Below are positions 4,422 through 7,400 of a DNA stretch of 37,226 nt, in pieces. Source of the DNA: Minisyncoccota bacterium (GTDB taxonomy: Bacteria > Patescibacteriota > Minisyncoccia > Phycocordibacterales > UBA1006); the NCBI GenBank assembly GCA_021209525.1, contig JAJOIF010000014.1, forward strand, positions 1 to 37,226, written 5' to 3'. The notes beneath the pieces were generated by a model, which worked only from the letters and a program-made list of their open reading frames with translations, made no database searches and was not told the DNA's origin. Every line of letters starts with the position of its first letter. Within the stretch, counting starts at the first letter, position 1. Position numbers and translations under genes: made by a program.

Positions 4422-7400
4422 TCCTAATAGGAATACGGGGAATTAGTATCCTTTGGCTCAACGCATTACTGCGCTTCCACCTTGGACCTATCAACCTAGT
4501 CATCTTCTAGGACCCTGTGATATCTGATCTTGAAGTTGGCTTCCCTCTTAGATGCTTTCAGAGGTTATCCATTCCCAACATAGCTACTCGACATTGCTCC
4601 TGGCGGAACAGCCGATAGACCAGAGGTTAGTTCATCCCGGTCCTCTCGTACTAGGGACAAATCTTCTCAAATATCAACGCCTGCAGTAGATAGGAGACCA
4701 ACCTGTCTCACGCAACAGTTGCACATAATAATAATTTGTACGAGATTATTATGCACGCCGTCATTCCTGACGGGATCGGACTATACGTTCTTTGTGTTTG
4801 TATACACAAAGGCTGGTTTGTAGTCTCTACAGAGAATAGTATTCTCCTCGGTATTGCCCCTTGCAATGCAAGTCGGGTTCTACCGAAAACCCCAGCTTCT
4901 CTTGAATATAATTCAAGCCGCCGTGTTAAGATTGATGCTATCATTTTTCATAGACGAAAAAACTCGATTTATATATGTGTTTTCTCACATGTTCTGATTC
5001 TTATGTCTGTTACGTATGCTGTGATTCAGACGGTAGAAAAGTCTTCAAACTCCTCTACGGTCTGAACCCAGCTCGCGTACCTTTTTAATTGGCGAACAGC
5101 CAAACCCTTGGGACCTTCTCCGGCCCCAGGATAAGATGAGCCGACATCGAGGTGCCGAACATCGCCGTCGATATGAACTCTTGGGCGATACTAGCCTGTT
5201 ATCCCCAGGGTAGCTTTTATCCGTTAATCTCCGCCCGCATCTAATGCGTAGCGTTGGTTCACTAAGCTCGTGTTTCCACTCTGCTCGACATGTACGTCTT
5301 GCAGTTAAGCTGGTTTATGCCTTTACACTATCGGCACGGTTTCCATTCGCGCCTAACCAACCTTTGTAGGCTCCTCCGTTACTCTTTAGGAGGAAAGCGC
5401 CCCACTCAAACTACCCACCACACACTGTCTCAATATGTTTTGTCCATACTGGTTAGAATACATCTCTCTTTAGGGTAGTATCTCACTGGCGACTCATATA
5501 CAACCAAAATCGTATACTCAACGTCTCCTACCTATGCTGCGCAAAAGAAAAATGTACCCAATGTGAAGCTGTAGTAAAGCTCCTGGGGTCTTTTCGTCTA
5601 ACTGCAGGTAAGCGGCATCTTTACCGCTATTGCATTTTCACCGAGCAAGTCCTCGAGACAGTTCCCTAGTCGTTACGCCATTCGTGCACGTCTGAATTTA
5701 CCAGACAAGGAAATTCGCTACCTTAGGACCGTTATAGTTACGGCCGACATTCACCAGGGCTTATATAGTCCAGCCATACATACAAGTACATATGACCCCC
5801 CATATTTAACCTTCTGGCATTGGTCAGGCGTCACCCCCTATACATCCTCTTGCGAGTTAGCAGGGAGCTGTGTTTTTGATAAACAGTCGCCAGGGATCTT
5901 TCGCTGCGCCCTACATTGCTGTAGGGGGACCTTATTCCGAAGTTACGGTCGCTGTTTTGCCGAGTTCCTTGAGGACCTCTCACTCGTTCGCCTTGGTCTA
6001 CTCGACCTAACCACCTGTGTCGGTTTGCGGTACGGTTTACATAGTATGAACCTTAGAAGCTTTTCTTGGAAGTCTCTTTACGTATATCTGATCAGCCGTA
6101 GCTTCACATTTTGAGTGTTTTGAGATTTACGCATCCCGGATTTACCTAAGATACATCTCTACCACCTTCAACGTCAATCCAATAAGACGCATACGTTTAT
6201 TTACTTCGTCCCTCCATCGAATACTATATAAGTCACGGAATATTAACCGTGTATCCATCGGTTACGGCTTTCACCATCACCTTAGGACCGACTAACCCTT
6301 CGTTGATTAACATTGCGAAGGAAACCTTGGTTTTTCGGCGGGCAGGGATCTCACCTGCCTTGCGGTTACTTGTGCCAACATTCTTGCTTCTACACGCTCC
6401 AGTATGGGTTACCCCTTTACCTTCAACGCAGAGTAGAATACTCTCCTACCACTCCTATCTTAACGATAGAAATCCCAAATTTCGGTATCATATTTAGCCC
6501 CGATCATTTGTGGCGCAAAATCTCTAGATCAGTGAGCTGTTACGCTTTCTTTAAAGGATGGCTGCTTCTAAGCCAACCTCCTGATTGTTAGAGAAATTTC
6601 ACCTCCTTGTTTGCACTTAATATGAATTTAGGGACCTTAATTGTGGGTCTGGGCTGTTTCCCTTTCGACCAGTGGAGCTTCGCCCCCACGGTCTCACTGC
6701 CATGTTGTAACTTTTGGTATTCGGAGTTTGATAGAGATGACGAGGTTTCCCCCTATTCAGCTCATCCAGTGCTCTACCCCCAAAAGGATCACATGACGCT
6801 AACCCTAAAGCTATTTCGGAGAGAACCAGCTATTACCAAGTTCGATTAGCTTTTCACTCCTTGCCACAAGTCATCCCCGCGTTTTGCACGGCGCGTGGGT
6901 TCGGGCCTCCACAAAGTTTTACCCTTGCTTCACCCTGCTCATGGCAAGCTCACTTGGTTTCGGGTCGTATATGTACTACATGCGCGCTATTCACACTCGG
7001 TTTCCCTTGGGCTCCAGTTATTAACCTTAACCAGGCAGCACACATACACTCGTTGGCTCATTCTTCAATAGGCACGCCGTCGAGGATCTAAGTCCTCTTC
7101 GACTCCTTGTAGATGTATGGTTTCAGATCTATTTCACTCCCCTCCCGGGGTTCTTTTCACCTTTCCCTCACGGTACTTGTTCACTATCGGTCTCGTTATA
7201 TATTTAGCCTTACCAGTTAGTTCTGGTGGATTCGCTCAAGCTATTCATGTCTTGAACTACTCAAGAGCAGTGACAAAAGAGGCATACTATTTTCGAATAC
7301 ACGAGTATCACGTTCTATGCTCAAGCTTTCCAGCTTGTTCTTCTAAGAGTATACTTTGTAACTCTTCTCATATAAATACGACGTCACTGTCTTACAACCC

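Follow-up and report, generated by a model that had tools for sequence, protein, structure and literature searches.

The chloroplast LSU intron of Chlamydomonas with I-CreI has the same insertion site as the intron described here; it carries an endonuclease gene, unlike our intron, and was compared through the site and the endonuclease homology of ordinary bacterial introns at this position. Among bacteria, the L2593 introns of Synechococcus C1 and C9 and of T. elongatus have been published, with P7.1/P7.2 (Haugen et al. 2007, PMC1995217). These cyanobacterial introns share our site and a homologous core, a Thermosynechococcus locus (L198) being matched with an E value of 2.5e-5 by R1, a model built from nine aligned sequences with the window among its training rows. 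They differ in having an endonuclease gene and a P7.1/P7.2 of ~65 nt (PMC1995217) and, in the Thermosynechococcus relative, a guide near the 5′ end. According to a survey of CPR genomes, 2593 is a listed 23S insertion site, with LAGLIDADG_1, and ORF-less group I introns are common in CPR 23S genes, numbering 222 over all 23S sites (Tsurumaki et al. 2024, PMC11270868); the 2593 introns of that survey share both the site and the phylum-level group of ours. Engineered trans-splicing group I ribozymes with extended guides also use extra substrate pairing beyond P1 (e.g., PMC6155759), and the clamp described below works alike but is not a member of that class, being natural, in cis and on the 5′ exon. 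In the open-access literature, no account of CPR or L2593 introns was found that describes a displaced guide or a further guide for the exon. As the site and the intron type are already known for CPR but no published guide or clamp of this kind was found, the intron is regarded as a variant with two guides, whose two-guide exon recognition may be new.

The window, a stretch of 37,226 nucleotides from a Minisyncoccota bacterium of the Patescibacteria (CPR) (contig JAJOIF010000014.1; genome assembly of 15 contigs totalling 679,573 bases, completeness 98.6%), contains a 23S rRNA gene at 4423 to 7691 (RF02541, 2449.8 bits) with a group I intron of 344 nt inside it at 4713 to 5056; this gene and all features within it lie on the minus strand. 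The 5′ exon GGGUUCAGACCGU directly precedes the insert, with exon position −1 at 5057, and the 3′ exon CGUGAGACAG (4703 to 4712, with +1 at 4712) follows a terminal G (omega-G) at 4713 that is shared by all relatives with an insert here. The exon boundaries are unique and, with the terminal G, confirmed exactly the insert delimited by a first-pass annotation of this DNA. In a 2903-nt 23S allele of E. coli, the insertion point follows nt 2592, equivalent to 2593 when the standard 2904-nt count is used, which places the insert after U2593 in helix 93, the L2593 site. The 23S match covers 3269 nt and, without the insert, 2925 nt, the length of the RF02541 model, so there was no sign of a second intron in this gene. 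The insert folded better than shuffled sequences (z −3.9). An uninterrupted site matching AGANCGTCGTRAGACAG was not found in the window's own assembly, so that the insert presumably has to be excised before the ribosome can work. A 5S gene lies behind the 23S gene on the same contig, at 4237 to 4344. The 16S gene was absent from the window (1 to 37226) holding this 23S-5S pair, and the rRNA genes look unlinked. The first 120 nt of the window (1 to 120) contain a repeated GCTGGAGCTTTTTTAGCAAC, whose minus-strand reading is an alanine-lysine-proline-rich tail like that of histone H1-type proteins.

Within the insert, the P3-P8 core of group I introns was found, with crossing P3 and P7 helices and P4 to P6. 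The first-pass annotation had traced P4-P5, P6, both P7 strands, P8 and P9; all of these were present, as were P2 and P3. An alignment of the window and eight relatives, covering the guide, the 3′ strand of P7 and everything between them, had 91.2% of its cells paired and 16 pairs changed on both sides, while sliding the partners lowered core pairing to 30 to 47% and no shuffle reached the observed value. This nine-sequence alignment supported the pairing of P4 (UCGGU, 4882 to 4886, with (U)ACCGA, 4848 to 4853), the P5 hairpin (4857 to 4877), the P6 hairpin (4831 to 4847) and the 3′ strand of P3 (CCAGC, 4812 to 4816). Four P3 pairs had both-side changes, the strands varying in step from GCUGG/CCAGC (5′ strand at 4892 to 4896 in the window) to GCUGAC/GUCAGC, GUCGAC/GUUGAC and GUCAAC/GUUGAC. 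P7 (GACUA, 4821 to 4825, with UAGUC, 4779 to 4783) was 100% paired in the nine relatives, and all seven inner pairs of the P2 hairpin (4902 to 4916) had changed on both sides among relatives. The core fold also placed a P8 hairpin at 4790 to 4811, and folding gave P9 at 4758 to 4773 and P9.1 at 4720 to 4755 (together 4720 to 4773). A hairpin-like motif in the 5′ domain (UUUUUUCGUCUAUGAAAAA, 4944 to 4962) recurs in many relatives with the loop GUCUAU. In one relative (L010), a tRNA-like stretch (TCCTTTCGTCTAGTGGTTAGGACG...GGTTCGATTCCAGTAGGG) lies in the P6 loop of the intron (1080 to 1564), and ARAGORN finds no tRNA there.

The Rfam group I model RF00028 gave no match to the window intron even at an E value of ≤5 in searches of the window and its own genome, and matched 12 of 13 tested relatives weakly at the L2593 site (23 to 47 bits). 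With R1, the window intron reached 113 bits (E 1.4e-24), this intron being among the nine rows on which the model was trained. Lack of a match to the group I model had been offered as a refutation of the intron; RF00028 is indeed silent, yet the relatives' model detects the intron strongly, and the silence is a false negative of what is a search model rather than a defining feature. Judged by its relatives, the insert clearly reads as a group I intron. The CPR survey used Rfam and Pfam only and, as far as its accessible text extends, does not give exon-guide anatomy (PMC11270868); RF00028 misses the intron described here.

Introns of this kind are not exotic in the order. Counted over all insertion sites, R1 at an E value of ≤0.001 matched 201 of the 297 genomes from the order and 89 of the 240 sampled across the phylum. 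Exactly at the L2593 position there were 91 distinct inserts, including that of the window, of 250 to 737 nt, all ending in G, and the longest sense frame among the inserts of this family was 107 codons; a gene-less L2593 intron is thus common in the order. The initial suggestion that finding such an intron points to old horizontal transfer or repeated homing therefore overstated its rarity, given ~90 distinct introns at this site and the listing of 2593 for CPR. Horizontal movement is nevertheless possible, as judged from its distribution. Empty sites were detected in 13 of 118 relatives with a pattern that misses sites with a CAAA exon, including some in a single genus (g3), in which the sister G007 carries the intron. 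A close relative from another class (L234) has an AACGU exon together with the clamp, a GCGG guide and a high R1 score, features that hint at transfer. In the same locus, a second R1 match (1676 to 1899) begins soon after CGTGAGACAG following the L2593 intron, which suggests two introns with a very short exon between them. A comparison of the intron tree with host families (those with at least two members) gave 41 changes of family label on a weakly resolved tree. No DNA similarity to the intron was detected in phages. An endonuclease gene, the mark of a mobile intron, was found neither in the intron nor in the genome: there was no PF00961 (LAGLIDADG_1) match in the window's genome, and a 109-aa antisense frame over the intron had no Pfam match.

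The ordinary L2593 introns used for comparison, at least 52 in number, were obtained from the genome collection by a scan for AACGU exons in which the next base is not C, followed by simple checks. Among the matches listed, 51 of 52 had a GCGU guide within 45 nt (median nt 11), none of the 52 had the clamp, 37 of 52 had an open frame 140 codons long or longer, and 49 of 52 had a gap between P7 and P7′ of at least 73 nt, indicative of P7.1/P7.2, versus 26 to 60 nt in most relatives of the window type. The P7.1/P7.2 extension is therefore lacking from the window group. One ordinary-intron protein matched I-MsoI-derived (3e-47), I-CvuI (2e-29) and I-CreI (3e-22) chains, and the two tested proteins matched LAGLIDADG_1. 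Site, core and the endonuclease homology of these relatives together agreed with the claim that a group I intron without a gene of its own occupies the I-CreI site in helix 93. R1 scored two short ordinary introns (L173 and L180) at 82 bits, indicating that the cores of the two groups are related, and gave weak to moderate scores to those with an endonuclease (e.g., 49 bits for L115). One intron (L182) has an endonuclease-length frame without P7.1/P7.2. Most likely, both the endonuclease and P7.1/P7.2 were lost in the window group and its 5′ end was remodelled, a direction of change that is inferred. Two L2593 introns with endonuclease-length frames come from MAGs titled Lokiarchaeota (L143) and Thiomargarita (L218), for which a binning error is possible.

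Group I introns follow the rule of a U.G pair at the 5′ splice site. In the window intron, a guide located ~130 nt 3′ of this site provides that pair: the sequence ACACGGCGG (ACACG|GCGG) at 4926 to 4918, intron nt 131 to 139, contains a P1 part, GCGG (4918 to 4921), which complements exon positions −4 to −1 (CCGU, 5057 to 5060) with the U of −1 opposite G, and a P10 part, CACG (4922 to 4925), which complements CGUG of the 3′ exon. Nearly all relatives have (U)CACGGCGG downstream, at a median of 138.5 nt from the splice site (range, 65 to 359), although a few guide positions were mis-parsed (e.g., L043), and CGGCGG with no more than one change recurs in nearly all of them. P10 covaried without exception in the rows with scorable letters: exon position +3 was U with guide A in 84 and C with G in 5, and position +4 was G with C in 78 and A with U in 7. 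A CGC 3′ exon was accompanied by GCG in the guide in five of five cases, the other 84 rows having ACG, and in the window's own family (f1) the window pairs CGUGAG with ACACG, versus CGCAAG with AUGCG in two members (G001 and G008). Because CCGU is invariant at −4 to −1 in all relatives within the order, the P1 pairing rests on a comparison between subfamilies, AACGU with GCGUU versus ACCGU with GCGG; the relative from another class is an exception, combining AACGU with GCGG and a mismatch at −4.

A second exon strand is also paired. Exon positions −13 to −5 (GGGUUCAGA, 5061 to 5069) complement an intron strand, UCUGAAYCC in relatives (UCUGAAUC, 5023 to 5030, in the window), which usually lies directly 3′ of a hairpin beginning with the first intron nucleotide (AGAGGAGUU/GACUUUUCU, 5035 to 5056) and has at least 7 pairs, with a spacer of 2 to 5 nt, in 73 of 86 relatives. 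In the window, this hairpin and the exon together gave −32.4 kcal/mol (z −7.4). A clamp match of at least 8 of 9 positions was detected in 90% of introns versus 1.2% with shuffled exons. Covariation was observed at −6 (G-C 64, A-U 21, G.U 3, A.C 1), the segment having been chosen without the base facing −6, and at −8 (C with G 78, C with A or U 4, U with A in 3 of 3, A with U in 1 of 1), with the facing base likewise omitted. Matched changes also occurred within families (f55, f61 and f85). Parsimony on the best tree gave ~19 changes at −6, with 4 independent pairs on supported branches and a mean of 3.9 in the same direction. As changes on supported branches were few (4, 1 and 2), below what a significant sign test needs, the case for the clamp rests on its breadth. 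The covariation supports a natural extra guide on nine exon bases beside the splice site, which may be new. The spacer ACCG (5031 to 5034) faces CCGU and contains the A that the first-pass annotation saw opposite the last exon U; among relatives, the base facing C at −3 was A or C in 80 of 86, a kept mismatch, and the base facing U at −1 was A in 65 of 86. Read 5′ to 3′, the exon strand of the clamp comes first, then that of P1, then the intron partner of the clamp and last the P1 guide, so that the two helices cross to give a pseudoknot, and the exon could run as one continuous strand against both.

The explanation that best fits these data, and in which we have considerable confidence, is a group I intron that belongs to the L2593 lineage, has neither an endonuclease gene nor P7.1/P7.2, uses two exon guides and would splice itself out of the 23S RNA. 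Exon positions −13 to −5 would pair with UCUGAAYCC as the RNA emerges, in a single hairpin that also takes in the ~22 nt at the start of the intron. This clamp would hold the 5′ exon and leave CCGU in an internal loop; the downstream guide would then pair with CCGU to form P1. Guanosine bound in P7 would attack after U2593, the CACG of the guide would pair with the 3′ exon after this first step, and the exons would be ligated after the terminal G. A broader claim, that rRNA group I introns include a widespread subfamily in which the ordinary P1 is replaced by a pseudoknotted 9-bp clamp and a 4-bp P1 from a guide 65 to 359 nt away, is probable, if less firmly so.

A variation on this explanation rather than its opposite is that the near hairpin acts as a switch, hiding the 5′ splice site in an inactive fold that resembles P1 until, with the core in place, the hairpin gives way to the downstream guide, so that splicing is delayed and paced with ribosome assembly. 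The stability of the hairpin, the kept mismatch at −3 and the late arrival of the guide are consistent with this reading, but clamp and P1 use different exon bases and are able to coexist, so displacement would be needed for two inner pairs only; we regard a switch as possible but rather doubtful. Following the first-pass annotation, the near hairpin could instead be P1 itself, formed by UUCAGACCGU with ACCGUCUGAA and having an unusual U-A pair, with ACACGGCGG as only a core element. The exon-intron pairing that it recognized is real and stable, with A facing U at −1 in most relatives, but its assignment as P1 did not hold, since GCGG gives the U.G pair of the general rule. This hairpin was rejected as P1 owing to the U-A at the splice site, the kept mismatch and the better guide downstream, which can pair with the two exons over their junction and changes in step with the 3′ exon; furthermore, ordinary relatives use GCGU with U.G. 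The near hairpin is accordingly an improbable P1. Least likely of all is a degenerate insert that is retained or is cut out without ligation to leave a ribosome with fragmented 23S RNA, a reading in keeping with the silence of RF00028 and with intervening sequences at other sites of CPR 23S genes (PMC11270868) but at odds with the compensatory preservation of the core helices and P10 and with the terminal G in every relative.

For CPR genomes in general, the silence of RF00028 on this intron gives reason to suspect that curated models miss introns of this type. Under the two-guide explanation, the clamp would cover a sequence of the peptidyl transferase centre (2581 to 2589) beside a P1 of only four pairs. 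Such an arrangement would be a natural counterpart to engineered guide extensions and may offer a test bed for a control of splicing that acts co-transcriptionally within ribosome assembly.
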